Shown: piece after piece, positions 1-54,027 of the stretch
Numbering within the stretch: position 1 is the first letter of the stretch
Layout: each line of letters starts with the position of its first letter
Assembly: GCA_009746045.1 (NCBI GenBank)
Contig: RPFO01001598.1
Location: 442,501-506,500, forward strand
Length of the DNA: 64,000 nucleotides
From: Mesostigma viride
Taxonomy: Eukaryota; Streptophyta; Mesostigmatophyceae; Mesostigmatales; Mesostigmataceae
Direction: 5' to 3'
Program-made: the position numbers and the translations under genes
Notes under the pieces: generated by a model
What the model saw: the letters and a program-made list of their open reading frames with translations, nothing else
The model's database searches: none
Told to the model about the DNA's origin: nothing

Positions 1-235
1 TTTGCTGGTGGTGGACCCCGTAGCCAGCGCGGACAGGGTTCCCCATAGCCGGCTTTCTCGTCGCACACCTGCGCATGGTCACTCGTGCTTGCGGGGGTGC
101 GTGCCCGGTTGGTTCTGTGCAATGGTGTGAGTCGGGGTTGTGAGCCTTGCCCCACGTCCGGCCTAACTCTTGGCTGACCCCCTTGCATGCGATCCTGTTG
201 CACGGTATGGTGCTTCGGAGTGCCATCCACTGCAG

Positions 236-409
236 GTGCACAAGCGCAAGGCAACCTTGCCTGACTACTGGTGGCACGTGGAGTACGTGGCCGGCACCAG
301 TGCACTTCCCGCCGACGAGAAGGTGACCGGACTCCTGAGGACAAGGGAATTGCTGCGGACGCAGATGGAAGAGGACGGCGATCCGGAAGATGACCGGCAA
401 AAGTCCGCG
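236..409 (+). CDS. Probable internal exon of an unrecognised gene
   Basis: Open exon-like stretch between an acceptor-type CTGCAG (ending at 235) and a donor-type GTAGGT (starting at 410). It gives 58 codons in phase 0. The protein starts VHKRKATLPDYWWHVEY and ends in an acidic stretch (QMEEDGDPEDDRQKSA). It is compositionally protein-like: charged, with Trp and Tyr clustered and no low complexity. I do not recognise the family. The next candidate exon (676-757) continues in the same phase, which supports real splicing. Any earlier exons would lie before this window or in the first 235 bases, where I see no convincing start. It could be a chance ORF in GC-rich DNA. Confidence 0.35.
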
Positions 410-503
410 GTAGGTCGCTTGCAGCCGCCGAACGCTCGCATGGGAAGGATCTCGTCCCTGCCCGTTGTCTTGTCTGCGTCGCAGTACACTCGCCTTTCCC
501 TCT

Positions 504-556
504 CCCCCCCCCCCCCCCCCCCCCCCCCCCAACACACACGCACACACACGCGCACC
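504..556. repeat. Poly-C run followed by AC/CG dinucleotides
   Basis: An uninterrupted C run of about 27 bases (504-530) is followed by an (AC)n-like stretch. It lies in the putative intron between the first two exon candidates. Homopolymer length may be inexact in an assembly. Confidence 0.9.
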
Positions 557-675
557 ACCCTTCCCGCCCTGACGCCTGATTGCCACCTCACAGCGACCCG
601 CGCGCCCTGATGCCCGGCGAGTGCTTGCTCGACGCACGTGTTTGTCTTCTTTGCATGTGATGGCCGACGGTGCAG

Positions 676-757
676 GTGAAGAACCTGGAGGCCAGAATAA
701 AAACTCGACTTGAGTCGGCGCGCAAGGCGGAAAAGGCCGAGACGGAGCGCTCGGCCG
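676..757 (+). CDS. Probable second exon of the unrecognised gene
   Basis: Follows an acceptor-type GGTGCAG (ending at 675). It reads VKNLEARIKTRLESARKAEKAETERSA, a highly charged, helix-prone segment that continues the preceding exon in phase 0. Two donors are possible: GTGGCC at 758, leaving one base over, which fits the next candidate exon at 2260; or GTGGGG at 775, phase 0. I prefer 758 because the phase then matches 2260. No family recognised. Confidence rests only on phase agreement and composition. Confidence 0.3.
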
Positions 758-1177
758 GTGGCCACCCCGTGCAGGTGGGGCTCCGAGCAAATGCACGCTT
801 GTGGGACTGCAGGATGATGGGTGGTGGGTGTGGAATGTTGGGTGTGCTGCCCGTCATGTCCTGGTTCGGCTGCGCGTGGGCCCAGCACACACCATTTTCC
901 CCTCGCTAATGCAGCCCCCATTCTGGCGCACCCCCGTCCCACCCGCCCCACCCACCGCGTCGTACCGCGGCTTCTTCTGCCCAACCGGCGCAGCCACCAG
1001 GCGGGGTGCGCAACGACACCCCGCGTGCGTCGGGTGGACGCAGCGAGGCCGCACAGCGGGTACGTTGCCAGTCCGTACGTTTGTTTTGGTTGTTTTCGCG
1101 TCGTTCTTTTCGAACCTGCACGTTTGCTCGCCCGCCGGCCATATAATGCACCAGCGAGGACTACCCGCCGCACAGCG

Positions 1178-2070
1178 GGATAGGGAGAGAGGGAGGGGAG
1201 AAAGGAAGGACGGAGGGAGGGAGGGAGGGAGGGAGGAGGGAGGGAGGGAGGGAGGAGGGAGGGAGGGGAGGGAGGGAGGGAGCGAGGGAAGGAGGTAGGT
1301 AGGTAGGTAGGGAGGGAGGGAGGAGGGAGGAGGGAGGGAGGAGGGAGGGAGGGAGGGAGGGAGGGAGGGAGGGAGGGAGGGAGGGAGGGAGGGAGGGAGG
1401 GAGGAGGGAGGGAGGGAGGGAGGGAGGGAGGGAGGGAGGGAGGGAGGGAGGGAGGGAGGGAGGGAGGGAGGGAGGGAGGGAAGGAGGGAAGGAGGGAAGG
1501 AGGGAAGGAGGGAAGGAGGGAAGGAGGGAAGGAGGGAAGGAGGGAAGGAGGGAGGGAGAGGGAGGGAGGGAGGGAGGGAGGGAGGGAGGGAGGGAGGGAA
1601 GGAGGGAAGGAGGGAGGGAGGGAGGGAGGGAGGAGGGAGGGAGGGAGGGAGGGAGGGAGGGAGGAGAGAGGGAGGAGGGAGGGAGGGAGGGAGGGGAGGG
1701 AGGGGAGGGAGGGAGGGGAGGGAGGGGAGGGAGGGGAGGGAAGGGAGGGAGGTAGGTAGGGAGGGAGGGAGGGAGGGAGGGAGGTGAGGGAGGGAGGGAG
1801 GGGAGGGAGGGGAGGGAGGGGAGGGAGGGGAGGGAGGGGAGGGAGGGAGGGAGGGGAGGGAGGGGAGGGAGGGAGGGAGGGGAGGGAGGGAGGGAGGGAG
1901 GGAGGGGAGGGAGGGAGGGAGGGGAGGCAGGGGAGGGAGGGGAGGGAGGGAGGGAGGGAGGCAGGGAGGGAGGGAGGGATGGAGGGAGGGAGGGAGACAA
2001 GGAAGAGAGAGAGGGAGGGAGGGAGGGAGGGAGGGAGTCAAGGAAGAGAGAGAGGGAGAGAGAGAGCGGA
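1178..2070. repeat. GGGA microsatellite, about 0.9 kb
   Basis: Nearly pure (GGGA)n on the plus strand with interruptions GGGAA, GGGGA and GGTA, grading into GAGA at its right end. The plus strand carries hundreds of consecutive G3 tracts, a strong G-quadruplex-forming composition. The long ORFs across it (Pro/Ser/Leu on minus, Gly/Arg/Glu on plus) are artefacts of a stop-free repeat. Confidence 0.97.
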
Positions 2071-2259
2071 GTGCCTGACGGAAGGACGGCGGGGCGGGAT
2101 GTCAGACCACTACCCTCACAAACACGTCCCCCGATCACTACCCTCCCAAACACTTCCCTCGTTTGCGTGACATGTCCCCTCTGATGTGGCCTTGTGACGG
2201 ACAGGCTGCGCATTCAGTCAGCAAACACCGCGTGACTAGTCCTACGGAGTGGACCGCAG

Positions 2260-2330
2260 GCACCGGGCCCGGCGAAGCACATCGTGCTGCCGAGAACGAT
2301 TTCGGCCCGGCCCCCAAACGGGCGAAGCCG
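2260..2330 (+). CDS. Possible third exon of the unrecognised gene
   Basis: Lies between an acceptor-type ACCGCAG (ending at 2259) and a donor GTACGT at 2331. Read with one base carried over from 757 it gives GTGPGEAHRAAENDFG then PAPKRAKP, ending in phase 0. The KRAK stretch is basic and could be a nuclear localisation signal. The phase also fits the open exon starting at 3462, so all four blocks could be one transcript ending in the EsV-1-7/nuclease domain. Weak evidence taken alone. Confidence 0.25.
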
Positions 2331-3410
2331 GTACGTGACATGTGCACACGTGGGTGGTGGATGGCCCGCGCTGGTGTGGGTGCTGGCATGCGCCCGGGCA
2401 TCGACGTGCTGTGGCATGCCCGGGCGTGGATACTGGCCGGCGTGGACGCGGTGGTGGATGGCATGCGAGGGCGTGGTTGAGGGCCCGCGTGGGCGTGGTG
2501 GTGGATCAGGCACGGGGGGGCATGGGGTAGGGCCAGCGCGGGCGTGGCTGTGGGCGTGCGAGGGCCCGGGGGTTGCTAGAATGCCTGGGCGGGGTGGATG
2601 GCACGCGCGGGTGCCGCCGATAGGATGAGTGGGCGCGGTGGTTGGTGGGCGTGGTGGCGGAGGGTGGCGTCCGTGACGTCTGCGTGGGCGTGGTGGTCGA
2701 GGGCGTGCGTGGGCCTATTGTTGATGGCATGCGTGGTCTGGGGGTGGCATGCGTGGGCGCGGTGGATGGCACACGTGCGCCGCGTGGTTGATGGCACGCG
2801 TGGGTGTACTTGCTGGCGTGCGTGGACGTGGTGGTCAACGGCATGCACGCGTGTGTGGCTGGTCCCATACGTGTGCGTGGTTGTTGGCACACGTGGGCGT
2901 GGTTGCTGTCACGCACGGGCGTGGTGGTGGATGGCATGCGTGGACACGGCGGTTTGTTGCATGTGTGGGCCTGGAGGTCGGTGGTGTGCGTGGGTATGGC
3001 GATTGATGGCCCGCGGGGGGGACCGTAGCTGATGGCATGCATGGACATGTGGGTCACTGGCACGCGGGGATGTGGTTGCTGGCATGAGTGGGCGCGGTGG
3101 GTGGTGGCAGTGGCGGCGGTGGATGTCATGCGTGGGTGTCATGATGGATGGCATGCGCGGGTGTGCCGGTGGATGGCATGCGTGGGTGGTGTGGTGGGTG
3201 GCGTCCGCGGGGGGCCTGGGTGGCCGGCGCGTCGATGCCGTGGGTGGCATCCGCGGATGTCTCACATGGCATGCATTGGTGTGTTGGTTGCTGGCGCGCG
3301 TGCGTGTGGTGGTGGGTGGCCTGCGTGGGCGTGGTGGGTGGCCTTGTTGGGCGCGTGGGCGTGGTGGGCAGGGGCACGTGGTGGTGGGAGACGCGCCGCC
3401 GTCACTTACC
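2331..3410. repeat. Degenerate TG-rich minisatellite
   Basis: About 1.1 kb of imperfect repeats built on the words GCGTGGGCGTGG and GGTGGATGGCATGCGTGGG, with spacing of roughly 25-50 bases. There is no regular reading frame, so ORFs here are shadows. If the flanking exons are spliced together this is an intron. The words are similar in flavour to the 40-bp satellite further right, but I cannot align them as the same family. Confidence 0.8.
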
Positions 3411-3461
3411 CACGCTCTTTTCGCGGGCCCCGCGGTGATGTCGTAAAACACATGTGTGCAG

Positions 3462-5045
3462 AATGGGACGCGCCGGATTGGCGAGCCGAGCAGGAACCAC
3501 GCCGAGGATGGCATGGTGGACGTGGTGCATCCCAGGTGCCAACACCCGCCCGGGTGTGATGCGCGACCCTCGTTTGCGGAGCGCGGCGCCAAGAAGCCCC
3601 GGTTCTGCAAGAAGCACAAACAGAATGGCATGGTGGACGTGGTGCACCCCAGGTGCCAACACCCGCCCGGGTGTGATGCGCGACCCTCGTTTGCGGAGCG
3701 CGGCGCCAAGAAGCCCCGGTTCTGCAGGGAGCACGCCGCGCCGGACATGGTGGACGTGGTGCACCCCAGGTGCCAACACCCGCCCGGGTGTGATGCGCAA
3801 CCCTTGTTTGCGAAGCGCAGCGCCAAGAAAGGCAGGTTCTGCAGGAAGCACGCCGCGCCGGACATGGTGGACGTGGTGCATCCCAGGTGCCAACACCCGC
3901 CCGGGTGTGATGCGCAACCCTTGTTTGCGGAGCGCGGCGCCAAGCAAGGCAGGTTCTGCAGGAAGCACGCCGCGCCGGACATGGTGGACGTGGTGCATCC
4001 CAGGTGCCAACACCCGCCCGGGTGTGATGCGCGACCCTTGTTTGCGGCGCGCGGCGCCAAGAAAGGCAGGTTCTGCAAGGCGCACGCCGATCCGGACATG
4101 GTGGATGTGGTGACTCCCAGGTGCGAACACCCGGAAGGGTGTGAGGCGAATGCGGGATGGGGCGACGTGGGTAAACGCGCCGTCCACTGCGCGAGGCACA
4201 AGGAAGACACCGCCGTCCCTGAGCCGCGACAACGGTGCAAGGCGGAGGCATGCCGGGCCGTGGGCACGTACGCGGACCCGGATCATGGCGAGCGCTTCTG
4301 CGACGCCCACGCAGAGGCGGGCCACTGGCGGCTGGCGGGCGTGTGCGACGACTGTGGTCTACACTGGGAGTGGAGATCGGGGGTGCCCGTGGTCCTCACC
4401 CCAGCAGAGGGCAAGATCGCGGGCCAGCGACGGCCCCTACACAACCGCTGCGTGTACTGCGACCCCGTCGTGTTCAACAATCATCGACACCGCGAGGAGT
4501 GGAAGGTGGCCGCTGCCCTACAGAAGGTGCGCATCGCCCGGTGGACGCTGGTGCACGACCGGCGGATCCACGGCGGCGAGTGCGTGGCGAGCCGGCCGGA
4601 TTTCGTCATCTACACGGATGGCGCCCACGTCGTCATCGTCGAGGTCGACGAGCACCAGCACCGCTCGTACGACCAGTACTGCGAGCTCGTGCGGCTGTTC
4701 AACCTCGGACAGTCGTGCGAGGGGCTGCCGCTGCTGGTCATCCGTTACAACCCCCACTCGTACCGCAGCTCCGGGGGGGAACTCGTCCACGGGGGGACCG
4801 ATGCCAGCGACGAGCAGCGACAGGCCGTGCTGCTGTCGTACGTGAGGGCGTTGCTAGACAATTCGTACAACCCCCACGAGCGCAAACCGAAAGTGCACTG
4901 CCGAGCAGTGAAGCTTTTCTATGATGGATGGGATGACGACGCCATGACCGTGCCCACCGACGAGGGGCCCCACTGGCTGGACATCCAGCTATTCGACACG
5001 CCCAACGAGATCGCCTGCCTGGCGGAGGCGGCGATCGAGCCGTAG
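3462..5045 (+). CDS. EsV-1-7 repeat / zinc ribbon / PD-(D/E)XK nuclease protein, giant-virus type
   Basis: Open exon ending in TAG. The frame is closed by TAA at 3444. No ATG precedes 3513, so either translation starts at ATG 3513 (510 aa) or an exon joins at the TGTGTGCAG acceptor ending at 3461; the limits given assume the acceptor. Residues are numbered from codon 3456. Five near-identical 39-aa repeats (117 bp each, at 3513, 3630, 3747, 3864, 3981) follow C-X5-C-X16-C-X2-H-X12 with linker GMVDVV or DMVDVV. The EsV-1-7 (IMMEDIATE UPRIGHT) family normally has X4. Two diverged repeats follow (C223...H248, C261...H285), then a CDDC...CVYC ribbon (297-335). The nuclease-like domain has RPD382F, E395-V-D397, EHQH and Y403, resembling Vsr/DUF559 PD-(D/E)XK enzymes. 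Inferred role: zinc-binding DNA endonuclease, DNA target unknown. I recall this fusion from nucleocytoplasmic large DNA viruses; transfer in either direction is possible. Confidence 0.85.
   Translation, partial: NGTRRIGEPSRNHAEDGMVDVVHPRCQHPPGCDARPSFAERGAKKPRFCKKHKQNGMVDVVHPRCQHPPGCDARPSFAERGAKKPRFCREHAAPDMVDVVHPRCQHPPGCDAQPLFAKRSAKKGRFCRKHAAPDMVDVVHPRCQHPPGCDAQPLFAERGAKQGRFCRKHAAPDMVDVVHPRCQHPPGCDARPLFAARGAKKGRFCKAHADPDMVDVVTPRCEHPEGCEANAGWGDVGKRAVHCARHKEDTAVPEPRQRCKAEACRAVGTYADPDHGERFCDAHAEAGHWRLAGVCDDCGLHWEWRSGVPVVLTPAEGKIAGQRRPLHNRCVYCDPVVFNNHRHREEWKVAAALQKVRIARWTLVHDRRIHGGECVASRPDFVIYTDGAHVVIVEVDEHQHRSYDQYCELVRLFNLGQSCEGLPLLVIRYNPHSYRSSGGELVHGGTDASDEQRQAVLLSYVRALLDNSYNPHERKPKVHCRAVKLFYDGWDDDAMTVPTDEGPHWLDIQLFDTPNEIACLAEAAIEP
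3513..4214 (+). repeat. In-frame tandem repeats encoding EsV-1-7 motifs
   Basis: Five 117-bp units with high nucleotide identity, including silent positions, plus a sixth diverged unit from 4098. The near identity of units 1-5 points to recent unequal exchange or gene conversion inside the gene. Copy number may vary between strains. Confidence 0.95.
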
Positions 5046-6387
5046 CTGGCGCGTCGCGCATGTTGTGTTGGCCTGTCACACGCTCGCGGATGTAGACCGA
5101 CCGGTTTGGTCGTGCTGAACACCGGCCTCTTGTAAACCACACATGTGCCGAGATGGCTGTCCTGATGCCTGCGAAAACGCCTAAATGGAGGACGCTGGGA
5201 CCGTATATTTAACCAATAAATGGGCAGAAATACTGCCGATAAATCGGCTGGATCTTCACAATTTTGCAAACCAGATGCCATCCAACCCACCCATATCCAA
5301 TGGCTGTCCTTGGGGGCCAAGCATGTCCATGAGTTGCCCTAAGCCGTGATATATCACAACCTCACATATATTCATCGTAGGCCATGTATAACTGCCGTCA
5401 AAGTCAGGGGGGTCAAGACGCGCGTATTCGTTTTTGGTAGAATGTGCATTTTGAATTATGTTGTAAGAGCTAGGCACCGACAACTAAGTATCAATACCAG
5501 TACGTATCAACTATTCACATCTCACTGGAAAGGATAATAAATTTGTAGAACTCAAGATATGAATGCACTATACATTGCCCCGAGGTGTCGATGACATTGA
5601 AGGGCGTCGATGGCATTGAAAGGCGCAAATGAATGCCTCGCACAGCTCCTCGTCCAGCTGCTCTTTGCTGAGCCCGTAAGGTGCGGGCAAATTACCGTCG
5701 GTGGATTGGCCCTTTGATGATGGCTTGCTTGCTTTCCTGGCTCTCCTGGACAGGTGGAGCAAGGTTGCCAGGCCACGCAAGTCAACACAGGACCTGCACA
5801 ATTACTACTACGTACTGGGTACATATGTACGTATATCTGGCCCTCGGCCACTGCAGAATCTCTACTGCCATATGCGGCGTGGGACACAACAACAACAACA
5901 ACAACAACTGTAAATATACTACTGTATCCGGCCCTCGGCCTATGTCGACAGAATCTCTTTGGAAACGGCCGAGGGCAACAACAACAACAACAGCAACAAC
6001 CTGGCAACAACAACACCAAGAATCTCTGCTGCCCATGTGGGGCGTAGCCCTCAACAACAACACCAACAGGCGGTCAGGCGCAGGCTGGCGCAGCAAGCAG
6101 CATTAACATCAGTCCTGAAACTCGAAAAGATTTTTACTGCTGGACTCAGCACCAGGGATTTCCCTGGCTTCACCTCGATACATGAGCGCTGGTTTCAAAG
6201 TGACCATGCCAGTGTTTCGGTAACACATGGCATATGGCGATGCCGAGTGAGGTTGTTGTAACACGTAACCAAGGGGCGAGTTAGGGGCTGGTCTCTACTT
6301 TGTAAGGTAAACCACGAGCATTCCCCGCGGGGGTAAACAAGCCTCCTGATGTAATTTGGGAGAAAATTAGCTATTCAAGGATCGACG
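5046..6387. other. Intergenic region, with three CAA-rich repeats
   Basis: No gene seen. Base composition falls towards AT between 5180 and 5560. From about 5845 to 6065 three imperfect copies of a module occur: a CGGCCCTCGGCC-like GC word, GAATCTCT, then (CAA)n. The last 300 bases presumably hold the SEC22 promoter and 5' UTR, but no clear TATA box is visible. Confidence 0.7.
5131..5135 (+). promoter_or_regulatory. TGTAA polyadenylation-type signal
   Basis: TGTAA lies 86 bases after the stop of the EsV-1-7/nuclease gene. TGTAA is the common poly(A) signal of many chlorophytes. A five-base match can be chance. Confidence 0.35.
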
Positions 6388-11970
<5,583 letters not shown>

Positions 11971-19463: not shown

Positions 19464-19620
19464 TGTTGTGTGTGTGTGTTGTTCACATGTGCGTGTGTGT
19501 GTTGTGTGTGGTGTGTGTTGTGCGTGTGCGTGTGCGTGTGCGTGTGCGTGTGCGTGTGCGTGTGTGTGTATATAATTTTTTGTTGTGTGTGTGTGTGTTG
19601 TGTGTTGTACGTGCAAGGTG
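19464..19620. repeat. TG / TGCG simple repeat at the satellite edge
   Basis: (GT)n and (GTGTGC)n stretches with a short AT-rich break (TATATAATTTTTTG) near 19570, leading into the 40-bp satellite. It could be the degenerate margin of the array. Confidence 0.85.
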
Positions 19621-19632
19621 TATGTACATGTG

Positions 19633-22600
19633 TGTGCAGCCGGCCCTTGCGTGCGCGGTGTGTGAACGTTTCTGTGCAGCCGCCCCTTGCGTGCGCGGTG
19701 TATGTACGTGTGTGTGCATGCCGGCCCTTGCGTGCATGGTGTGTGTACGTGTGTGTGCAGCCGCCCCTTGCGTGCGCGAGTATGTACATGTGAGTGCAGC
19801 CGACCCTTGCGTGCGCGGTGGATGTACATGTGTGGGCAGTTGCCCCTATCGTGCGCGGTGTATGTACATGTGTTTGCACTTGCCCATTGCGTGCATGGTG
19901 TGTGTACGTGTGTGTGCAGCCGCCCCTTGCGTGCGCGGTGTATGTACGTGTGTGTGCATGCCGGCCCTTGCGTGCATGGTGTGTGTACGTGGGTGTGCAG
20001 CCGCCCCTTGCGTGCGCGAGTATGTACATGTGAGTGCAGCCGACCCTTGCGTGCGCGGTGGATGTACATGTGTGGGCAGTTGCCCCTTGCGTGCGCGGTG
20101 TATGTACACATGTGTGTAGCCGCCCCTTGCGTGCATGGTGTATGTACATGTGTGTGCAGTCGACCCGTGCGTGCGCAGTGGATGTACGTGTGTGGGTAGC
20201 CGTCCCTTGCGTGCGCGGTGGATCTACGTGCGCGGTGTATGTACATGTGTGTGCAGCCGCCCCTTGCGTGCATGGTGTGTGTACATGTGAGTGCAGCCGG
20301 CCCTTGCGTGCGCGGTGTATGTACGTGTGAGTGCAGTCGCTCCTTGCGTGCATGGTGTATGTACATGTGAGTGCAGCCGGCCCCTTGCGTGCGCGGTGGA
20401 TGTACATGTGTGTGCAGCCGTCCCTTGCGTGCATGGTGTATGTACATGTGAGTGCAGCCGGCCCCTTGCGTGCGCGGTGGATGTACATGTGTGTGCAGCC
20501 GCCCCTTGCGTGCGCGGTGTGTGTACGTGTGTGTGCAGTTGCCCCTTGCGTGCGCGGTGGATGTACGTGTGTGTGCAGCCGCCCCTTGCGTGCGCGGTGT
20601 ATGTACGTGTGTGTGCAGCCGGCCCTTGCGTGCATGGTGTATGTACATGTGTGTGCAGTCGCCCCGTGCGTGCGCAGTGGATGTACGTGTGTGGGTAGCC
20701 GTCCCTTGCGTGCGCGGTGGATCTACGTGCGCGGTGTGTGTACGTGTGTGTGCAGCCGCCCCTTGCGTGCATGGTGTGTGTACATGTGTGTGCAGCCGCC
20801 CCTTGCGTGCATGGTGTGTGTACGTGCATGTGTGTGCAGCCGGCCCTTGCGTGCATGGTGTGTGTACGTGTGTGTGCAGCCGGCCCTTGCGTGCGCGGTG
20901 TATGTACGTTTGTGTGCAGCCGTCCCTTCCGTGCATGGTTAGTGTACATGTGTGTGCAGCCGCCCCTTGCGTGCATGGTGTATGTACATGTGAGTGCAGC
21001 CGGCCCTTGCGTACGCGGTGTATGTACGTGTGTGTGCACTCGCCCCTTGCGTGCGCGGTGGATGTACGTGTGTGCGCACTCGCCCCTTGCGTGCATGGTG
21101 TATGTACACGTGAGTGCAGCCGGCCCTTGCGTGCGCGGTGTGTGTAAGTGTGCGTGCAGTCGCTCCTTGCGTGCATGGTGTGTGTACGTGTGTGTGCAGC
21201 CGCCCCTTGAGTGCGCGGTGTGTGTAAGTGTGCCTGCAGTCGCTCCTTGCGTGCATGGTGTGTGTACATGTGTGTGCAGCCGCCCCTTCCGTGCATGGTG
21301 TGTGTACGTGTGTGTGCAGCTGGCCCTTGCGTGCGCGGTGTATGTACGTTTGTGTGCAGCCGTCCCTTCCGTGCATGGTTAGTGTACATGTTTGTGCAGC
21401 CGCCCCTTGCGTGCATGGTGTATGTACATGTGAGTGCAGCCGGCCCTTGCGTACGCGGTGTATGTACGTGTGTGTGCACTCGCCCCTTGCGTGCGCGGTG
21501 GATGTACGTGTGTGCGCACTCGCCCCTTGCGTGCATGGTGTATGTACACGTGAGTGCAGCCGGCCCTTGCGTGCGCGGTGTGTGTAAGTGTGCGTGCAGT
21601 CGCTCCTTGCGTGCATGGTGTGTGTACGTGTGTGTGCAGCCGCCCCTTGCGTGCGCGGTGGATGTACGTGTGTGTGCAGCCGCCCCTTGCGTGCGCGGTG
21701 GATGTACGTGTGTGTGCACTCGCCCCTTGCGTGCGCGGTGGATGTACGTGTGTGTGCACTCGCCCCTTGCGTGCGCGGTGGATGTACGTGTGTGCAGGCG
21801 TCCCTTGCGTGCGTGGTGTATGTACATGTGAGTGCCGTCGCCCCAAGCGTGCATGGTGTGTGTACGTGTGTGTGCAGGCGTCCCTTGCGTGCGTGGTGTG
21901 TGTACATGTGAGTGCAGCCGGCCCTTGCGTGCGCGGTGTATGTACGTGTGTGTGCAGCCGCCCCTTGCGTGCATGGTGTGTTTACGTGTGTGTGCAGCCG
22001 CCCCTTGCGTGCGCGGTGTATGTACGTGTGTGTGCCGTCGCCCCAAGCGTGCATGGTGTGTGTACGTGTGTGTGCAGTTGCCCCTTGCGTGCGCGGTGGA
22101 TGTACGTGTGTGTGCACTTGCCCCTTGCGTGCGCGGTGTGTGTGTAAGTGTGCGTGCACTCGCCCCTTGCGTGCATGGTGTATGTACACGTGTGTGCAGC
22201 CGCCCCTTGCGTGCATGGTGTATGTACATGTGAGTGCAGCCGGCCCCTTGCGTGCGCGGTGGATGTACATGTGTGTGCAGCCGCCCCTTGCGTGCGCGGT
22301 GGGTGTACGTGTGTGTGCAGTTGCCCCTTGCGTGCATGGTGTATGTACATGTGAGTGCAGCCGGCCCCTTGCGTGCGCGGTGGATGTACGTGTGTGTGCA
22401 GCCGCCCCTTGCGTGCGCGGTGTATGTACGTGTGTGTGCACTCGCCCCTTGCGTGCGCGGTGGATGTACATGTGTGTGCAGCCGCCCCTTCCGTGCATGG
22501 TGTGTGTACGTGTGTGTGCAGGCGTCCCTTGCGTGCGTGGTGTATGTACGTGTGTGTGCAGTTGCCCCTTGCGTGCGCGATGGATGTACGTGTGTGTGCC

Positions 22601-25600
22601 GCCGGCCCTTGCGTGCATGGTGGATGTACATGTGAGTGCAGCCGGCCCTTGCGTGCGCGGTGGATGTACGTGTGTGTGCAGCCGCCCCTTGCGTGCATGG
22701 TGTGTGTACGTGTGTGTGCAGCCGGCCCCTTGCGTGCATGGTGTATGTACATGTGTGTGCATGCCGGCCCTTGCGTGCATGGTGTGTGTACGTGTGTGTG
22801 CAGCCGCCCCTTGCGTGCGCGGTGGATGTACGTGTGTGTGCATGCCGGCCCTTGCGTGCATGGTGTGTGTACGTGGGTGTGCAGCCGCCCCTTGCGTGCG
22901 CGAGTATGTACATGTGAGTGCAGCCGACCCTTGCGTGCGCGGTGGATGTACATGTGTGGGCAGTTGCCCCTTGCGTGCGCGGTGTATGTACATGTGTGTG
23001 CAGCCGCCCCTTGCGTGCATGGTGTATGTACATGTGTGTGCAGTCGACCCGTGCGTGCGCAGTGGATGTACGTGTGTGGGTAGCCGTCCCTTGCGTGCGC
23101 GGTGGATCTACGTGCGCGGTGTATGTACATGTGTGTGCAGCCGCCCCTTGCGTGCATGGTGTGTGTACATGTGAGTGCAGCCGGCCCTTGCGTGCGCGGT
23201 GTATGTACGTGTGAGTGCAGTCGCTCCTTGCGTGCGCGGTGTGTGTGTAAGTGTGCGTGCACTCGCCCCTTGCGTGCATGGTGTATGTACACGTGTGTGC
23301 AGCCGCCCCTTGCGTGCATGGTGTATGTACATGTGAGTGCAGCCGGCCCCTTGCGTGCGCGGTGGATGTACATGTGTGTGCAGCCGCCCCTTGCGTGCTC
23401 GGTGTGTGTACGTGTGTGTGCAGTTGCCCCTTGCGTGCGCGGTGGACGTACGTGTGTGTGCAGCCGCCCCTTGCGTGCGCGGTGTATGTACGTGTGTGTG
23501 CAGCCGGCCCTTGCGTGCATGGTGTATGTACATGTGTGTGCAGTCGCCCCGTGCGTGCGCAGTGGATGTACGTGTGTGGGTAGCCGTCCCTTGCGTGCGC
23601 GGTGGATCTACGTGCGCGGTGTGTGTACGTGTGAGTGCAGCCGGCCCCTTGCGTGCATGGTGTATGTACATGTGTGTGCAGCCGCCCCTTCCGTGCATGG
23701 TGTGTGTACGTGTGTGTGCATGCAGCCGGCCCCTTGCGTGCATGGTGTATGTACATGTGTGTGCATGCCGGCCCTTGCGTGCATGGTGTGTGTACGTGTG
23801 TGTGCAGCCGCCCCTTGCGTGCGCGGTGGATGTACGTGTGTGTGCAGCCGCCCCTTGCGTGCATGGTGTGTGTACGTGTGTGTGCAGCCGCCCCTGGCGT
23901 GCGCGGTGTATGTACGTGTGTGTGCATGCCGGCCCTTGCGTGCATGGTGTGTGTACGTGTGTGTGCAGCCGCCCCTTGCGTGCGCGGTGTATGTACATGT
24001 GAGTGCCGTCGCCCCTTGCGTGCATGGTGTATGTACGTGTGTGTGCAGTTGCCCCTTGCGTGCGCGGTGTATGTACATGTGAGTGCAGCCGGCCCCTTGC
24101 GTGCGCGGTGTGTGTACGTGTGTGTGCAGTTGCCCCTTGCGTGCGCGGTGGATGTACGTGTGTGTGCAGGCGTCCTTTGCGTGCATGGTGGATGTACGTG
24201 TGTGTGCAGGCGTCCCTTGCGTGCGCGGTGTGTGTGTAAGTGTGCGTGCACTCGCCCCTTGCGTGCATGGTGTATGTACACGTGTGTGCAGCCGCCCCTT
24301 GCGTGCATGGTGTATGTACATGTGTGTGCAGCCGCCCCTTCCGTGCATGGTGTGTGTACGTGTGTGTGCAGCCGCCCCTTGCGTGCGCGGTGTATGTACA
24401 TGTGAGTGCAGCCGGCCCCTTGCGTGCATGGTGTATGTACATGTGCGTGCACTCGCCCCTTGCGTGCATGGTGTATGTACACGTGTGTGCAGCCGCCCCT
24501 TGCGTGCATGGTGTATGTACATGTGTGTGCATGCCGGCCCTTGCGTGCATGGTGTATGTACACATGTGTGCAGCCGCCCCTTGCGTGCATGGTGTATGTA
24601 CATGTGTGTGCAGCCGCCCCTTCCGTGCATGGTGTGTGTACGTGTGTGTGCAGCCGCCCCTTGCGTGCGCGGTGTATGTACATGTGAGTGCAGCCGGCCC
24701 CTTGCGTGCATGGTGTATGTACATGTGTGTGCAGCCGCCCCTTCCGTGCATGGTGTGTGTACGTGTGTGTGCAGCCGCCCCTTGCGTGCGCGGTGTATGT
24801 ACGTGTGTGTGCATGCCGGCCCTTGCGTGCATGGTGTGTGTACGTGGGTGTGCAGCCGCCCCTTGCGTGCGCGAGTATGTACATGTGAGTGCAGCCGACC
24901 CTTGCGTGCGCGGTGGATGTACATGTGTGGGCAGTTGCCCCTTGCGTGCGCGGTGTATGTACATGTGTGTGCAGCCGCCCCTTGCGTGCATGGTGTATGT
25001 ACATGTGTGTGCAGTCGACCCGTGCGTGCGCAGTGGATGTACGTGTGTGGGTAGCCGTCCCTTGCGTGCGCGGTGGATCTACGTGCGCGGTGTATGTACA
25101 TGTGTGTGCAGCCGCCCCTTGCGTGCATGGTGTGTGTACATGTGAGTGCAGCCGGCCCTTGCGTGCGCGGTGTATGTACGTGTGAGTGCAGTCGCTCCTT
25201 GCGTGCGCGGTGTGTGTGTAAGTGTGCGTGCACTCGCCCCTTGCGTGCATGGTGTATGTACACGTGTGTGCAGCCGCCCCTTGCGTGCATGGTGTATGTA
25301 CATGTGAGTGCAGCCGGCCCCTTGCGTGCGCGGTGGATGTACATGTGTGTGCAGCCGCCCCTTGCGTGCGCGGTGTGTGTACGTGTGTGTGCAGTTGCCC
25401 CTTGCGTGCGCGGTGGATGTACGTGTGTGTGCAGCCGCCCCTTGCGTGCGCGGTGTATGTACGTGTGTGTGCAGCCGGCCCTTGCGTGCATGGTGTATGT
25501 ACATGTGTGTGCAGTCGCCCCGTGCGTGCGCAGTGGATGTACGTGTGTGGGTAGCCGTCCCTTGCGTGCGCGGTGGATCTACGTGCGCGGTGTGTGTACG

Positions 25601-28600
25601 TGTGAGTGCAGCCGGCCCCTTGCGTGCATGGTGTATGTACATGTGTGTGCAGCCGCCCCTTCCGTGCATGGTGTGTGTACGTGTGTGTGCATGCAGCCGG
25701 CCCCTTGCGTGCATGGTGTATGTACACGTGAGTGCAGCCGGCCCTTGCGTGCGCGGTGTGTGTAAGTGTGCGTGCAGTCGCTCCTTGCGTGCATGGTGTG
25801 TGTACGTGTGTGTGCAGCCGCCCCTTGAGTGCGCGGTGTGTGTAAGTGTGCCTGCAGTCGCTCCTTGCGTGCATGGTGTGTGTACATGTGTGTGCAGCCG
25901 CCCCTTCCGTGCATGGTGTGTGTACGTGTGTGTGCAGCTGGCCCTTGCGTGCGCGGTGTATGTACGTTTGTGTGCAGCCATCCCTTCCGTGCATGGTTAG
26001 TGTACATGTGTGTGCAGCCGCCCCTTGCGTGCATGGTGTATGTACATGTGTGTGCAGTCGACCCGTGCGTGCGCAGTGGATGTACGTGTGTGGGTAGCCG
26101 TCCCTTGCGTGCGCGGTGGATCTACGTGCGCGGTGTATGTACATGTGTGTGCAGCCGCCCCTTGCGTGCATGGTGTGTGTACATGTGAGTGCAGCCGGCC
26201 CTTGCGTGCGCGGTGTATGTACGTGTGAGTGCAGTCGCTCCTTGCGTGCGCGGTGTGTGTGTAAGTGTGCGTGCACTCGCCCCTTGCGTGCATGGTGTAT
26301 GTACACGTGTGTGCAGCCGCCCCTTGCGTGCATGGTGTATGTACATGTGAGTGCAGCCGGCCCCTTGCGTGCGCGGTGGATGTACATGTGTGTGCAGCCG
26401 CCCCTTGCGTGCGCGGTGTGTGTACGTGTGTGTGCAGTTGCCCCTTGCGTGCGCGGTGGATGTACGTGTGTGTGCAGCCGCCCCTTGCGTGCGCGGTGTA
26501 TGTACGTGTGTGTGCAGCCGGCCCTTGCGTGCATGGTGTATGTACATGTGTGTGCAGTCGCCCCGTGCGTGCGCAGTGGATGTACGTGTGTGGGTAGCCG
26601 TCCCTTGCGTGCGCGGTGGATCTACGTGCGCGGTGTGTGTACGTGTGAGTGCAGCCGGCCCCTTGCGTGCATGGTGTATGTACATGTGTGTGCAGCCGCC
26701 CCTTCCGTGCATGGTGTGTGTACGTGTGTGTGCATGCAGCCGGCCCCTTGCGTGCATGGTGTATGTACATGTGTGTGCATGCCGGCCCTTGCGTGCATGG
26801 TGTGTGTACGTGTGTGTGCAGCCGCCCCTTGCGTGCGCGGTGGATGTACGTGTGTGTGCAGCCGCCCCTTGCGTGCATGGTGTGTGTACGTGTGTGTGCA
26901 GTTGCCCCTTGCGTGCATGGTGTGTGTACGTGTGTGTGCAGCCGCCCCTTGCGTGCGCGGTGTATGTACGTGTGTGTGCAGTCGCTCCTTGCGTGCATGG
27001 TGTGTGTACGGGTGTGTGCATGCCGGCCCTTGCGTGCATGGTGTGTGTACGTGTGTGTGCAGCCGCCCCTTGCGTGCGCGGTGGATGTACGTGTGTGTGC
27101 AGCCGCCCCTTGCGTGCATGGTGTATGTACACGTGTGTGCAGCCGCCCCTTGCGTGCATGGTGTATGTACATGTGAGTGCAGCCGGCCCCTTGCGTGCGC
27201 GGTGGATGTACATGTGTGTGCAGCCGCCCCTTGCGTGCGCGGTGTGTGTACGTGTGTGTGCAGTTGCCCCTTGCGTGCGCGGTGGATGTACGTGTGTGTG
27301 CAGCCGCCCCTTGCGTGCGCGGTGTATGTACGTGTGTGTGCAGCCGGCCCTTGCGTGCATGGTGTATGTACATGTGTGTGCAGTCGCCCCGTGCGTGCGC
27401 AGTGGATGTACGTGTGTGGGTAGCCGTCCCTTGCGTGCGCGGTGGATCTACGTGCGCGGTGTGTGTACGTGTGAGTGCAGCCGGCCCTTGCGTACGCGGT
27501 GTATGTACGTGTGTGTGCACTCGCCCCTTGCGTGCGCGGTGGATGTACGTGTGTGCGCACTCGCCCCTTGCGTGCATGGTGTATGTACACGTGAGTGCAG
27601 CCGGCCCTTGCGTGCGCGGTGTGTGTAAGTGTGCGTGCAGTCGCTCCTTGCGTGCATGGTGTGTGTACGTGTGTGTGCAGCCGCCCCTTGAGTGCGCGGT
27701 GTGTGTAAGTGTGCCTGCAGTCGCTCCTTGCGTGCATGGTGTGTGTACATGTGTGTGCAGCCGCCCCTTCCGTGCATGGTGTGTGTACGTGTGTGTGCAG
27801 CTGGCCCTTGCGTGCGCGGTGTATGTACGTTTGTGTGCAGCCGTCCCTTCCGTGCATGGTTAGTGTACATGTGTGTGCAGCCGCCCCTTGCGTGCATGGT
27901 GTATGTACATGTGAGTGCAGCCGGCCCTTGCGTACGCGGTGTATGTACGTGTGTGTGCACTCGCCCCTTGCGTGCGCGGTGGATGTACGTGTGTGCGCAC
28001 TCGCCCCTTGCGTGCATGGTGTATGTACACGTGAGTGCAGCCGGCCCTTGCGTGCGCGGTGTGTGTAAGTGTGCGTGCAGTCGCTCCTTGCGTGCATGGT
28101 GTGTGTACGTGTGTGTGCAGCCGCCCCTTGCGTGCGCGGTGGATGTACGTGTGTGTGCAGCCGCCCCTTGCGTGCGCGGTGGATGTACGTGTGTGTGCAC
28201 TCGCCCCTTGCGTGCGCGGTGGATGTACGTGTGTGTGCACTCGCCCCTTGCGTGCGCGGTGGATGTACGTGTGTGCAGGCGTCCCTTGCGTGCGTGGTGT
28301 ATGTACATGTGAGTGCCGTCGCCCCAAGCGTGCATGGTGTGTGTACGTGTGTGTGCAGGCGTCCCTTGCGTGCGTGGTGTGTGTACATGTGAGTGCAGCC
28401 GGCCCTTGCGTGCGCGGTGTATGTACGTGTGTGTGCAGCCGCCCCTTGCGTGCATGGTGTGTTTACGTGTGTGTGCAGCCGCCCCTTGCGTGCGCGGTGT
28501 ATGTACGTGTGTGTGCCGTCGCCCCAAGCGTGCATGGTGTGTGTACGTGTGTGTGCAGTTGCCCCTTGCGTGCGCGGTGGATGTACGTGTGTGTGCACTT

Positions 28601-31600
28601 GCCCCTTGCGTGCGCGGTGTGTGTGTAAGTGTGCGTGCACTCGCCCCTTGCGTGCATGGTGTATGTACACGTGTGTGCAGCCGCCCCTTGCGTGCATGGT
28701 GTATGTACATGTGAGTGCAGCCGGCCCCTTGCGTGCGCGGTGGATGTACATGTGTGTGCAGCCGCCCCTTGCGTGCGCGGTGGGTGTACGTGTGTGTGCA
28801 GTTGCCCCTTGCGTGCATGGTGTATGTACATGTGAGTGCAGCCGGCCCCTTGCGTGCGCGGTGGATGTACGTGTGTGTGCAGCCGCCCCTTGCGTGCGCG
28901 GTGTATGTACGTGTGTGTGCACTCGCCCCTTGCGTGCGCGGTGGATGTACATGTGTGTGCAGCCGCCCCTTCCGTGCATGGTGTGTGTACGTGTGTGTGC
29001 AGGCGTCCCTTGCGTGCGTGGTGTATGTACGTGTGTGTGCAGTTGCCCCTTGCGTGCGCGATGGATGTACGTGTGTGTGCATGCCGGCCCTTGCGTGCAT
29101 GGTGGATGTACATGTGAGTGCAGCCGGCCCTTGCGTGCGCGGTGGATGTACGTGTGTGTGCAGCCGCCCCTTGCGTGCATGGTGTGTGTACGTGTGTGTG
29201 CAGCCGGCCCCTTGCGTGCATGGTGTATGTACATGTGTGTGCATGCCGGCCCTTGCGTGCATGGTGTGTGTACGTGTGTGTGCAGCCGCCCCTTGCGTGC
29301 GCGGTGGATGTACGTGTGTGTGCATGCCGGCCCTTGCGTGCATGGTGTGTGTACGTGGGTGTGCAGCCGCCCCTTGCGTGCGCGAGTATGTACATGTGAG
29401 TGCAGCCGACCCTTGCGTGCGCGGTGGATGTACATGTGTGGGCAGTTGCCCCTTGCGTGCGCGGTGTATGTACATGTGTGTGCAGCCGCCCCTTGCGTGC
29501 ATGGTGTATGTACATGTGTGTGCAGTCGACCCGTGCGTGCGCAGTGGATGTACGTGTGTGGGTAGCCGTCCCTTGCGTGCGCGGTGGATCTACGTGCGCG
29601 GTGTATGTACATGTGTGTGCAGCCGCCCCTTGCGTGCATGGTGTGTGTACATGTGAGTGCAGCCGGCCCTTGCGTGCGCGGTGTATGTACGTGTGAGTGC
29701 AGTCGCTCCTTGCGTGCGCGGTGTGTGTGTAAGTGTGCGTGCACTCGCCCCTTGCGTGCATGGTGTATGTACACGTGTGTGCAGCCGCCCCTTGCGTGCA
29801 TGGTGTATGTACATGTGAGTGCAGCCGGCCCCTTGCGTGCGCGGTGGATGTACATGTGTGTGCAGCCGCCCCTTGCGTGCTCGGTGTGTGTACGTGTGTG
29901 TGCAGTTGCCCCTTGCGTGCGCGGTGGACGTACGTGTGTGTGCAGCCGCCCCTTGCGTGCGCGGTGTATGTACGTGTGTGTGCAGCCGGCCCTTGCGTGC
30001 ATGGTGTATGTACATGTGTGTGCAGTCGCCCCGTGCGTGCGCAGTGGATGTACGTGTGTGGGTAGCCGTCCCTTGCGTGCGCGGTGGATCTACGTGCGCG
30101 GTGTGTGTACGTGTGAGTGCAGCCGGCCCCTTGCGTGCATGGTGTATGTACATGTGTGTGCAGCCGCCCCTTCCGTGCATGGTGTGTGTACGTGTGTGTG
30201 CATGCAGCCGGCCCCTTGCGTGCATGGTGTATGTACATGTGTGTGCATGCCGGCCCTTGCGTGCATGGTGTGTGTACGTGTGTGTGCAGCCGCCCCTTGC
30301 GTGCGCGGTGGATGTACGTGTGTGTGCAGCCGCCCCTTGCGTGCATGGTGTGTGTACGTGTGTGTGCAGCCGCCCCTGGCGTGCGCGGTGTATGTACGTG
30401 TGTGTGCATGCCGGCCCTTGCGTGCATGGTGTGTGTACGTGTGTGTGCAGCCGCCCCTTGCGTGCGCGGTGTATGTACATGTGAGTGCCGTCGCCCCTTG
30501 CGTGCATGGTGTATGTACGTGTGTGTGCAGTTGCCCCTTGCGTGCGCGGTGTATGTACATGTGAGTGCAGCCGGCCCCTTGCGTGCGCGGTGTGTGTACG
30601 TGTGTGTGCAGTTGCCCCTTGCGTGCGCGGTGGATGTACGTGTGTGTGCAGGCGTCCCTTGCGTGCATGGTGGATGTACGTGTGTGTGCAGGCGTCCCTT
30701 GCGTGCGCGGTGTGTGTGTAAGTGTGCGTGCACTCGCCCCTTGCGTGCATGGTGTATGTACACGTGTGTGCAGCCGCCCCTTGCGTGCATGGTGTATGTA
30801 CATGTGTGTGCAGCCGCCCCTTCCGTGCATGGTGTGTGTACGTGTGTGTGCAGCCGCCCCTTGCGTGCGCGGTGTATGTACATGTGAGTGCAGCCGGCCC
30901 CTTGCGTGCATGGTGTATGTACATGTGCGTGCACTCGCCCCTTGCGTGCATGGTGTATGTACACGTGTGTGCAGCCGCCCCTTGCGTGCATGGTGTATGT
31001 ACATGTGTGTGCATGCCGGCCCTTGCGTGCATGGTGTATGTACACGTGTGTGCAGCCGCCCCTTGCGTGCATGGTGTATGTACATGTGTGTGCAGCCGCC
31101 CCTTCCGTGCTTGGTGTGTGTACGTGTGTGTGCAGCCGCCCCTTGCGTGCGCGGTGTATGTACATGTGAGTGCAGCCGGCCCCTTGCGTGCATGGTGTAT
31201 GTACATGTGTGTGCAGCCGCCCCTTCCGTGCATGGTGTGTGTACGTGTGTGTGCAGCCGCCCCTTGCGTGCGCGGTGTATGTACGTGTGTGTGCATGCCG
31301 GCCCTTGCGTGCATGGTGTGTGTACGTGGGTGTGCAGCCGCCCCTTGCGTGCGCGAGTATGTACATGTGAGTGCAGCCGACCCTTGCGTGCGCGGTGGAT
31401 GTACATGTGTGGGCAGTTGCCCCTTGCGTGCGCGGTGTATGTACATGTGTGTGCAGCCGCCCCTTGCGTGCATGGTGTATGTACATGTGTGTGCAGTCGA
31501 CCCGTGCGTGCGCAGTGGATGTACGTGTGTGGGTAGCCGTCCCTTGCGTGCGCGGTGGATCTACGTGCGCGGTGTATGTACATGTGTGTGCAGCCGCCCC

Positions 31601-40134: not shown

Positions 40135-43100
40135 AGTGCAGCCGGCCCTTGCGTGCGCGGTGTATGTACGTGTGAGTGCAGTCGCTCCTTGCGTGCGCGG
40201 TGTGTGTGTAAGTGTGCGTGCACTCGCCCCTTGCGTGCATGGTGTATGTACACGTGTGTGCAGCCGCCCCTTGCGTGCATGGTGTATGTACATGTGAGTG
40301 CAGCCGGCCCCTTGCGTGCGCGGTGGATGTACATGTGTGTGCAGCCGCCCCTTGCGTGCGCGGTGTGTGTACGTGTGTGTGCAGTTGCCCCTTGCGTGCG
40401 CGGTGGATGTACGTGTGTGTGCAGCCGCCCCTTGCGTGCGCGGTGTATGTACGTGTGTGTGCAGCCGGCCCTTGCGTGCATGGTGTATGTACATGTGTGT
40501 GCAGTCGCCCCGTGCGTGCGCAGTGGATGTACGTGTGTGGGTAGCCGTCCCTTGCGTGCGCGGTGGATCTACGTGCGCGGTGTGTGTACGTGTGAGTGCA
40601 GCCGGCCCCTTGCGTGCATGGTGTATGTACATGTGTGTGCAGCCGCCCCTTCCGTGCATGGTGTGTGTACGTGTGTGTGCATGCAGCCGGCCCTTGCGTG
40701 CATGGTGTATGTACACGTGAGTGCAGCCGGCCCTTGCGTGCGCGGTGTGTGTAAGTGTGCGTGCAGTCGCTCCTTGCGTGCATGGTGTGTGTACGTGTGT
40801 GTGCAGCCGCCCCTTGAGTGCGCGGTGTGTGTAAGTGTGCCTGCAGTCGCTCCTTGCGTGCATGGTGTGTGTACATGTGTGTGCAGCCGCCCCTTCCGTG
40901 CATGGTGTGTGTACGTGTGTGTGCAGCTGGCCCTTGCGTGCGCGGTGTATGTACGTTTGTGTGCAGCCATCCCTTCCGTGCATGGTTAGTGTACATGTGT
41001 GTGCAGCCGCCCTTGCGTGCATGGTGTATGTACATGTGTGTGCAGTCGACCCGTGCGTGCGCAGTGGATGTACGTGTGTGGGTAGCCGTCCCTTGCGTGC
41101 GCGGTGGATCTACGTGCGCGGTGTATGTACATGTGTGTGCAGCCGCCCCTTGCGTGCATGGTGTGTGTACATGTGAGTGCAGCCGGCCCTTGCGTGCGCG
41201 GTGTATGTACGTGTGAGTGCAGTCGCTCCTTGCGTGCGCGGTGTGTGTGTAAGTGTGCGTGCACTCGCCCTTGCGTGCATGGTGTATGTACACGTGTGTG
41301 CAGCCGCCCCTTGCGTGCATGGTGTATGTACATGTGAGTGCAGCCGGCCCCTTGCGTGCGCGGTGGATGTACATGTGTGTGCAGCCGCCCCTTGCGTGCG
41401 CGGTGTGTGTACGTGTGTGTGCAGTTGCCCCTTGCGTGCGCGGTGGATGTACGTGTGTGTGCAGCCGCCCCTTGCGTGCGCGGTGTATGTACGTGTGTGT
41501 GCAGCCGGCCCTTGCGTGCATGGTGTATGTACATGTGTGTGCAGTCGCCCCTTGCGTGCGCAGTGGATGTACGTGTGTGGGTAGCCGTCCCTTGCGTGCG
41601 CGGTGGATCTACGTGCGCGGTGTGTGTACGTGTGAGTGCAGCCGGCCCCTTGCGTGCATGGTGTATGTACATGTGTGTGCAGCCGCCCCTTCCGTGCATG
41701 GTGTGTGTACGTGTGTGTGCATGCAGCCGGCCCCTTGCGTGCATGGTGTATGTACATGTGTGTGCATGCCGGCCCTTGCGTGCATGGTGTGTGTACGTGT
41801 GTGTGCAGCCGCCCCTTGCGTGCGCGGTGGATGTACGTGTGTGTGCAGCCGCCCCTTGCGTGCATGGTGTGTGTACGTGTGTGTGCAGTTGCCCCTTGCG
41901 TGCATGGTGTGTGTACGTGTGTGTGCAGCCGCCCCTTGCGTGCGCGGTGTATGTACGTGTGTGTGCAGTCGCTCCTTGCGTGCATGGTGTGTGTACGGGT
42001 GTGTGCATGCCGGCCCTTGCGTGCATGGTGTGTGTACGTGTGTGTGCAGCCGCCCCTTGCGTGCGCGGTGGATGTACGTGTGTGTGCAGCCGCCCCTTGC
42101 GTGCATGGTGTATGTACACGTGTGTGCAGCCGCCCCTTGCGTGCATGGTGTATGTACATGTGAGTGCAGCCGGCCCCTTGCGTGCGCGGTGGATGTACAT
42201 GTGTGTGCAGCCGCCCCTTGCGTGCGCGGTGTGTGTACGTGTGTGTGCAGTTGCCCCTTGCGTGCGCGGTGGATGTACGTGTGTGTGCAGCCGCCCCTTG
42301 CGTGCGCGGTGTATGTACGTGTGTGTGCAGCCGGCCCTTGCGTGCATGGTGTATGTACATGTGTGTGCAGTCGCCCCGTGCGTGCGCAGTGGATGTACGT
42401 GTGTGGGTAGCCGTCCCTTGCGTGCGCGGTGGATCTACGTGCGCGGTGTGTGTACGTGTGAGTGCAGCCGGCCCCTTGCGTGCATGGTGTATGTACATGT
42501 GTGTGCAGCCGCCCCTTCCGTGCATGGTGTGTGTACGTGTGTGTGCATGCAGCCGGCCCCTTGCGTGCATGGTGTATGTACACGTGAGTGCAGCCGGCCC
42601 TTGCGTGCGCGGTGTGTGTAAGTGTGCGTGCAGTCGCTCCTTGCGTGCATGGTGTGTGTACGTGTGTGTGCAGCCGCCCCTTGAGTGCGCGGTGTGTGTA
42701 AGTGTGCCTGCAGTCGCTCCTTGCGTGCATGGTGTGTGTACATGTGTGTGCAGCCGCCCCTTCCGTGCATGGTGTGTGTACGTGTGTGTGCAGCTGGCCC
42801 TTGCGTGCGCGGTGTATGTACGTTTGTGTGCAGCCGTCCCTTCCGTGCATGGTTAGTGTACATGTGTGTGCAGCCGCCCCTTGCGTGCATGGTGTATGTA
42901 CATGTGAGTGCAGCCGGCCCTTGCGTACGCGGTGTATGTACGTGTGTGTGCACTCGCCCCTTGCGTGCGCGGTGGATGTACGTGTGTGCGCACTCGCCCC
43001 TTGCGTGCATGGTGTATGTACACGTGAGTGCAGCCGGCCCTTGCGTGCGCGGTGTGTGTAAGTGTGCGTGAAGTCGCTCCTTGCGTGCATGGTGTGTGTA

Positions 43101-49100: not shown

Positions 49101-49266
49101 TGTGTGTGTAAGTGTGCGTGCACTCGCCCCTTGCGTGCATGGTGTATGTACACGTGTGTGCAGCCGCCCCTTGCGTGCATGGTGTATGTACATGTGAGTG
49201 CAGCCGGCCCCTTGCGTGCGCGGTGGATGTACATGTGTGTGCAGCCGCCCCTTGCGTGCGCGGTGT
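40135..49266. repeat. 40-bp satellite array, block 2
   Basis: About 228 monomers, same orientation and variant set as block 1, and a direct continuation of it across the retrotransposon. Large parts match block 1 (for example the GGTTAGTGTAC-containing segment at 42850 matches 27860). Several monomers have a shortened head (GCAGCCGCCCT instead of CCCCT, near 41010, 43116, 44534, 44812, 46740, 47347, 48503), a pattern not obvious in block 1. Confidence 0.97.
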
Positions 49267-49330: not shown

Positions 49331-49527
49331 AGTAGTCAGTCCGACTAGAAGTGAGGGGGGGGTAGTGTGGACCGGGGTGGCGCGGCGCCACTGGCCTTTT
49401 GGTCAGTGGGCTGGCGCGCGCCACGGCACCACTGGCCTTTTTGGTCAGTGGGCTGGCGCGCGTCACGGTGCCACTGGCCTTTTGGTCAGTGGGCTGGCAC
49501 GCGCCACCCCAGGGCGGTCCGACTACT
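49331..49527. repeat. Triple-hairpin module inside A
   Basis: Three tandem ~41-bp units, each with CACTGGCC-TTTT(T)-GGTCAGTG (49389, 49430, 49472), enclosed by AGTAGTC (49331-49337) and GACTACT (49521-49527). Could fold as a cruciform with three side arms. Present in all four A modules. Confidence 0.85.
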
Positions 49528-53498: not shown

Positions 53499-54027
53499 TT
53501 TGTGAGCTCACGCTCGTATTATCTATGACTTGCGGCATACTCAAAGGGGGAGGGGCGGCCGCAGTAGTCAGTCCGACTAGAAGTGAGGGGGGGGTAGTGT
53601 GGACCGGGGGTGGCGCGGCGCCACTGGCCTTTTGGTCAGTGGGCTGGCGCGCGCCACGGCACCACTGGCCTTTTTGGTCAGTGGGCTGGCGCGCGTCACG
53701 GTGCCACTGGCCTTTTGGTCAGTGGGCTGGCACGCGCCACCCCAGGGCGGTCCGACTACTTAGGGTTGTGGTACTGCCACAATTAGGCCTCTTTGCAGCT
53801 CCCACCCGCCCTCCCTCGCTGCTTGAGGGTATTACAAGTCCAGGTCCTCATGACTGGCCCAGGTGAGTTGGCCCTGGTAATGTGATGTCCTAGCCACCTG
53901 TCGGGTGGCCTAGTTAGTCTAGAGTCTCAGATTGGCTACGGCCTTGACGTGGGCTTATCACTTATATGTAATAAATCTGGTTCTTCTGGCAGCCCCTCAC
54001 TCCAATGGGATAAAGCAATGATTGGAT
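53499..54027 (+). mobile_element. Short 529-bp derivative (A-spacer-D) of the composite element
   Basis: Joined directly to the end of the long unit (GATTGGAT|TTTGTGAG). It has the same A start and D end as the long unit, with about 1.06 kb of B and C replaced by a 26-bp filler (CCCACCCGCCCTCCCTCGCT and 6 more). This is the pattern of an internally deleted non-autonomous copy, here in a head-to-tail dimer with its parent. Confidence 0.75.

Follow-up and report, generated by a model that had tools for sequence, protein, structure and literature searches.

EsV-1-7 repeats are found in giant viruses and in a protein that regulates development in brown algae, and we know of no molecular function assigned to them. 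A gene of the early-branching streptophyte alga Mesostigma viride, in which such repeats are fused to a nuclease domain, raises the question of what the repeats do in this setting and what the gene is doing in many copies. It lies near the start of the 64,000-nucleotide stretch analysed here (the window, G000:C1934:442501-506500), and genome searches covered the 440-Mb, 2243-contig assembly. On balance, and with restrained confidence, we favour a modular zinc-array endonuclease carried on a multicopy unit, whose DNA breaks let the unit spread.

An EsV-1-7 array joined to a Vsr-like nuclease domain

The open frame runs from 3447 to 5045 on the plus strand (532 codons from stop to stop). Position 3462, taken as the start in the first-pass annotation, is in frame but does not begin a start codon, and ATG first occurs in this frame at 3513; at least one relative (P0004, beginning MVDVK) likewise opens directly with a repeat. 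Residues are numbered here from the codon at 3453. Counted from the ATG, D383, E397 and D399 become D363, E377 and D379, and the numbers first given to these residues (D382, E395 and D397) were off by one or two.

The N-terminal part consists of EsV-1-7 repeats. PF19114 matches the protein in seven stretches at 246 bits, against a curated cut-off of 25, and independent tandem-repeat detection finds 117 bp x 5.6 copies with 90% matches. Five C-X5-C-X16-C-X2-H repeats and two diverged ones are present, as first annotated, and 1000 shuffles of the protein gave a maximum of one such repeat. The PF19114 consensus spacing is C-X4-C-X16-C-X2-H, from which the canonical repeats of the window differ by X5 in the first spacing, the remaining spacings being in agreement. 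This X5, already pointed out, is indeed unusual: among 871 repeat-like stretches from 121 proteins, X4 occurs in 651 and X5 in 30, six of which belong to the window protein.

The array is followed by a zinc-ribbon-like segment, with a 19-residue insertion between its cysteine pairs that is found in 2 of 105 sequences, and by the nuclease domain. The cysteines C298, C301, C333 and C336 and the motifs RPDF and EVDEHQH are all found in the protein, and the earlier description of repeats, ribbon and motifs is borne out by frame, motif and Pfam evidence.

The assignment of the C-terminal part to the PD-(D/E)XK fold, made from the sequence alone, is supported by the AF2 model, fold comparison and residue conservation. 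The core of the model (H338-358, E364-368, E384-388, E393-398, H408-421, E427-432) has the alpha-beta-beta-beta-alpha-beta order of this fold, and the rows of the fold comparison, a re-alignment of Foldseek's best 1000 chains of which 998 aligned, are mostly proteins that we take to be PD-(D/E)XK. In an alignment of all 121 C-terminal parts (query included), made without selection for the motif, C298, C301, C333, C336, E397, D399, E400, H403, R414 and N433 are kept in 121/121. Nearly always kept are R431 and P434 (120 each), D383 (119, with E in the other two), R381 (118) and Q402 (108), and D383 and E397 place acidic residues at the strand hairpin, as in PD-(D/E)XK nucleases. The exact pattern E-x-D-E-x-[QE]-H is present in 105 of the 121; within these 105, and in the genomic copies used below for the ratio of nonsynonymous to synonymous polymorphism (pN/pS), the motif is conserved by construction, both sets having been picked by EVDE/VDEHQH.

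The domain resembles Vsr in its fold, and a Vsr profile match, obtained without a shuffle control, agrees with this. E-x-D-x-x-Q-H also lines up column by column with the DUF559 protein YcjD, and comparison with a DUF559 profile of 20 sequences (YcjD and 19 of 80 loci found) gave probability 28 and E 6.5e-4. The first shuffle control spoke against this link as it stands (real score 31.0, with at least one of 60 shuffles scoring 131) and was set aside because gap-rich columns had been shuffled too. When only columns present in the window protein were kept, the C-terminal part alone scored 27.2 with probability 18, against maxima of 22.8 and 5.2 in 200 shuffles. Two PD-(D/E)XK families give weak Pfam matches in line with this fold, NERD in the window protein (E 0.021) and Hjc in 5 of 43 members (best E 0.004). 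Sequence searches of PDB gave matches at E 0.27-0.28 only, and the NCBIfam names obtained were scattered, each in 1 to 7 of the 43 members. Matches to PHROGs, somewhere along the proteins, comprised 62 families, the strongest being phrog_38167 (5 members, best E 7.7e-14) and phrog_20634 (5 members, 7e-11), both of unknown function. Taken as a working enzyme, the ribbon and the Vsr-like domain would cut DNA by means of D383, E397 and probably D399/H403, with Mg2+.

Relatives and the exchange of the array

A search of 5.8 billion proteins returned 236 matches among 8000 candidates scored, and most of the 120 listed cover 80-95% of the query. The EukProt protein Mesvir1 (P0002) matches 59% of the query at 94% identity, and the matches listed include a full-length relative in the green alga Pedinophyceae sp. 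YPF-701 (P0054). The nuclease domain alone, searched among proteins of about 101 to 322 residues, a range that excludes full-length members and C2H2 forms, found 336 proteins among 1245 candidates, with 120 listed. EsV-1-7-like stretches are present in 74 of the 119 newly listed relatives, while 41 have an N-terminus too short to tell and 4 have the ribbon region only; C2H2 fingers occur in none of the 119, as the size range would bar them. Many of these short proteins probably represent gene fragments from short contigs. Among the relatives listed, the nuclease domain is usually accompanied by an EsV-1-7 array.

The same domain also stands behind another kind of zinc finger. A family-alignment scan of IMG/VR found a 7.2-kb contig (L043) encoding C2H2 fingers with TGEKP-type linkers followed by this nuclease domain, and a protein search gave four clusters with the same architecture, one of them 98% identical to the L043 protein over the searched part. 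Profile comparison of the EsV-1-7-type and C2H2-type nuclease domains gave probability 99.7 (E 1.7e-25, 134 columns), and in 13 sequences that include both array kinds 16 columns show no variation. Four other frames of L043 have no Pfam match beyond a weak one to DUF5901. Three IMG/VR scans yielded one C2H2 form and no EsV-1-7 nuclease; the third missed L043, so that coverage by these scans is incomplete.

DNA binding is typical of C2H2 arrays with TGEKP linkers. Since these precede the same nuclease, the EsV-1-7 array probably has that task too, its repeats folding into small zinc-binding units that would bind DNA. This is our main new argument, and the relatives with the other zinc finger type point to swappable zinc-finger nucleases of natural origin. 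Both the fusion and the C2H2 replacement make DNA binding by EsV-1-7 repeats directly testable. Across the genomic copies, 102 repeat units (66 distinct) vary most at positions 6, 16, 18, 29, 33, 34 and 36-39, and no recognition code could be read from this variation; we know of none for EsV-1-7 repeats. Among the listed titles and abstract openings of the literature searched, none describes an EsV-1-7 and nuclease fusion, though the 2017 paper defining the repeat may mention one.

The multicopy unit and its surroundings

A tblastn search of the genome gave 132 matches (81 of 175 candidates scored). By hand count, about 49 places reach the C-terminal part, and 29 of these, with at least 74% identity, lie on 26 contigs; a few may be assembly duplicates, such as those on C2079 and C1827, which are 99% alike. 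The 10 kb around 20 copies was read, and the window was compared with them by blastn. Within the gene the copies are 88-96% alike, and the similarity continues outside it, mostly at 84-93% over the window's first 1.7 kb in those that have it. The compared copies have non-coding DNA and an upstream gene in common. The first exon-like stretch of this gene shares a contig with a listed nuclease copy at 21 of its 22 places, within about 3.4 kb at 19 and at 9.4 and 13.7 kb at two, and is found on C1624 without a listed nuclease copy. The introns of the upstream gene appear to be retained. More diverged nuclease copies (about 52-77%) are paired tail to tail on C69, C336, C856 and C1170, and the C69 pair repeats at 14.3-kb spacing.

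Of 21 loci, 14 have three or more repeats in frame with the native C-terminus (two residues short in L029), with up to 15 repeats per frame. The frame is broken at six loci, and L038 has lost all its repeats. The polymorphism ratio was taken from the nuclease part of 14 copies, a set that left out L030, L031, L032, L035, L036, L039 and L040 for lack of a native end or of an anchor; pN/pS is 0.66, and RPD, CE and RYNP are intact in all 14.

The copy in the window ends at 5485, which was rejected as the end of the element since other copies run past it for differing distances. On the 5′ side a 5000-N gap adjoins the window, and gaps interrupt further copies. One copy apparently contains a 3.3-kb insertion, and the L044 insertion in one copy has an open frame that gives the impression of a LINE ORF1. 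The differing 5′ starts of the shared DNA brought a 5′-truncated retrotransposon into consideration, which is weakened by the varying 3′ ends and by the breaks in C1 and C667, where the upstream exon turns up again at distances of 14 and 9 kb and insertion explains the 5′ break; it may hold for L023, L024 and L038.

A 1.65-kb repeat with sharp ends begins about 164 bp past the nuclease stop codon and overlaps the unit by about 1.46 kb. It has about 2266 candidate places, and the 40 scored comprise 28 repeat copies, mostly 97% alike, and 12 nuclease copies including the query's own; of the remaining 11 nuclease copies, 7 leave the repeat at the same point. No terminal inverted match of more than 14 bases was seen at its ends. 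A hairpin-like GCCGA..TCGGC lies close to both ends (L021:5929-7575).

Table 1. Features of the unit and its nuclease gene in the window
Feature	Position	Strand	Basis
Portion of dispersed repeated unit	1..5485	+	blastn against 20 other copies; 5′ end in or beyond assembly gap
Exon-like stretch of upstream gene (VHKRKATLPDYWWHVEYV...)	236..424	+	22 genome places; limits inferred by eye
Next exon-like stretch, same gene	673..774	+	Splice sites inferred by eye
Nuclease gene	3513..5045	+	510 aa from first in-frame ATG; no intron needed; collinear relatives
EsV-1-7 array, five canonical and two diverged repeats	3513..4310	+	Pfam PF19114 E=1.3e-74; motif and shuffle test
Canonical repeat cores	3537-3617, 3654-3734, 3771-3851, 3888-3968, 4005-4085	+	Exact C-X5-C-X16-C-X2-H
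Diverged repeats	4122-4199, 4236-4310	+	
Zinc-ribbon-like C298-x2-C301...C333-x2-C336, 19-residue insertion between pairs	4344..4460	+	Four Cys in 121/121 aligned sequences
PD-(D/E)XK (Vsr-like) nuclease domain	4464..4985	+	AF2 model, fold comparison, conservation
D383; E397; D399; Q402/H403	4599-4601; 4641-4643; 4647-4649; 4656-4661	+	
First ~277 bp of 1.65-kb repeat, cut off here	5209..5485	+	L021:5925/5929-7575; window position by blastn offset

Beyond the unit, the open frame 6388-6792 starts MVRLTLIARVADGLPLAEG... and encodes what we take to be a Sec22-type SNARE; it is probably an ordinary host gene adjoining the unit. Arrays of a 40-bp satellite (GTGCAGCCGCCCCTTGCGTGCGCGGTGTATGTACGTGTGT) occupy much of the window (19610-31567, 40136-49266, 54028-58467 and 60591-63995), and a 41-bp x 3 repeat occurs four times near the satellite, two in each orientation (49383-49507, 53616-53740, 58755-58879 and 60348-60472).

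Competing explanations and known systems

The nuclease gene would ride this multi-kilobase, multicopy unit, which looks mobile, and the likeliest role of the nuclease would be to make the DNA break that lets the unit spread, in a homing- or transposase-like manner. Together, the multicopy unit and the C2H2 swap lead us to prefer a natural zinc-array nuclease that is modular and probably mobile. If this is true, zinc-finger nucleases, best known as engineered tools, also exist in nature, and the alga carries a new kind of multicopy element.

The copies might instead form a non-mobile gene family, multiplied by segmental duplication and unequal exchange, with the nuclease serving the cell, for instance in repair or in defence against foreign DNA; we consider this rather unlikely. 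The 29 closer copies are scattered over 26 contigs, and past the 3′ breaks L022 and L027 are the one pair among the tails of 19 loci that is alike over at least 150 bases, both of which speak against this reading; on the other hand, the ends of the shared DNA differ from copy to copy, the upstream introns are apparently kept, the constraint is mild, array length varies, and the more diverged copies come in pairs and in a 14.3-kb tandem. Rather unlikely to the same degree is a gene taken up from a large DNA virus and endogenised, its viral relatives serving against competing DNA. Two papers report EsV-1-7 domain genes, in several viral genomes (PMC7457493) and in the virus EsV-1 (PMC12993054), and the C2H2-type relative sits in an IMG/VR contig; the lack of an EsV-1-7 nuclease in the three non-exhaustive scans and the full-length relative in Pedinophyceae sp. 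point the other way.

The boldest version of the mobile nuclease, which seems to us a shade more doubtful than either of these, is a self-spreading natural system in which one Vsr-like domain takes interchangeable arrays (EsV-1-7 in metagenomic sequences and in algae, C2H2 in the virus-collection contig), a different number or sequence of repeats would mean a different target, and the Mesostigma unit would move both itself and 1.65-kb non-autonomous relatives by cutting.

Less likely again, the nuclease gene might have no part in movement and be the passenger of an unrelated transposon, for instance one related to the abundant 1.65-kb repeat that overlaps the unit or one encoded by the upstream gene that travels along with it. 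Against this, the nuclease motifs are intact in the copies examined. Helitron_like_N has 55 matches in the genome, all of them away from the listed nuclease copies, in sequence that does not extend to the 5′ end of the unit, and a search for the KDZ transposon gave no match, though its control also matched nowhere. Very improbable is a dead fold in a regulator comparable to brown-algal IMM that binds DNA or RNA. For it, D399 sits where the classical E-x-K motif has lysine, and cleavage is predicted only; against it, the conservation of D383, E397, D399, E400 and H403 in the unselected alignment is hard to explain without catalysis.

Several known systems share parts of this architecture. The EsV-1-7 proteins (PF19114), such as Ectocarpus IMMEDIATE UPRIGHT and the product of gene EsV-1-7 of the virus EsV-1, have, by profile match, the repeat C-Xn-C-X16-C-X2-H in common with the window protein, which adds a C-terminal nuclease and has X5 instead of X4. 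Relative to E. coli Vsr, it has an extra zinc array, and EVDExQH where Vsr has a histidine-rich stretch. I-Bth0305I is a Vsr-like homing endonuclease of the EDxHD type, with a phage intron as its host and a different DNA-binding region. E. coli YcjD shares E-x-D-x-x-Q-H, but is a 117-aa protein without a zinc array, and the DUF559 profile probability is just the 28 given above. With engineered zinc-finger nucleases the algal protein, and above all the C2H2 form, shares a zinc array joined to a separate cutting domain, whereas it is natural and its domain is Vsr-like rather than FokI. An enzyme of a mobile element bearing EsV-1-7 is also known from Ectocarpus, where a TcMar-2 transposase is reported to carry an N-terminal EsV-1-7 domain, in which the authors see a possible zinc finger class not yet characterised (PMC12477816); that enzyme is of the TcMar type, not PD-(D/E)XK.
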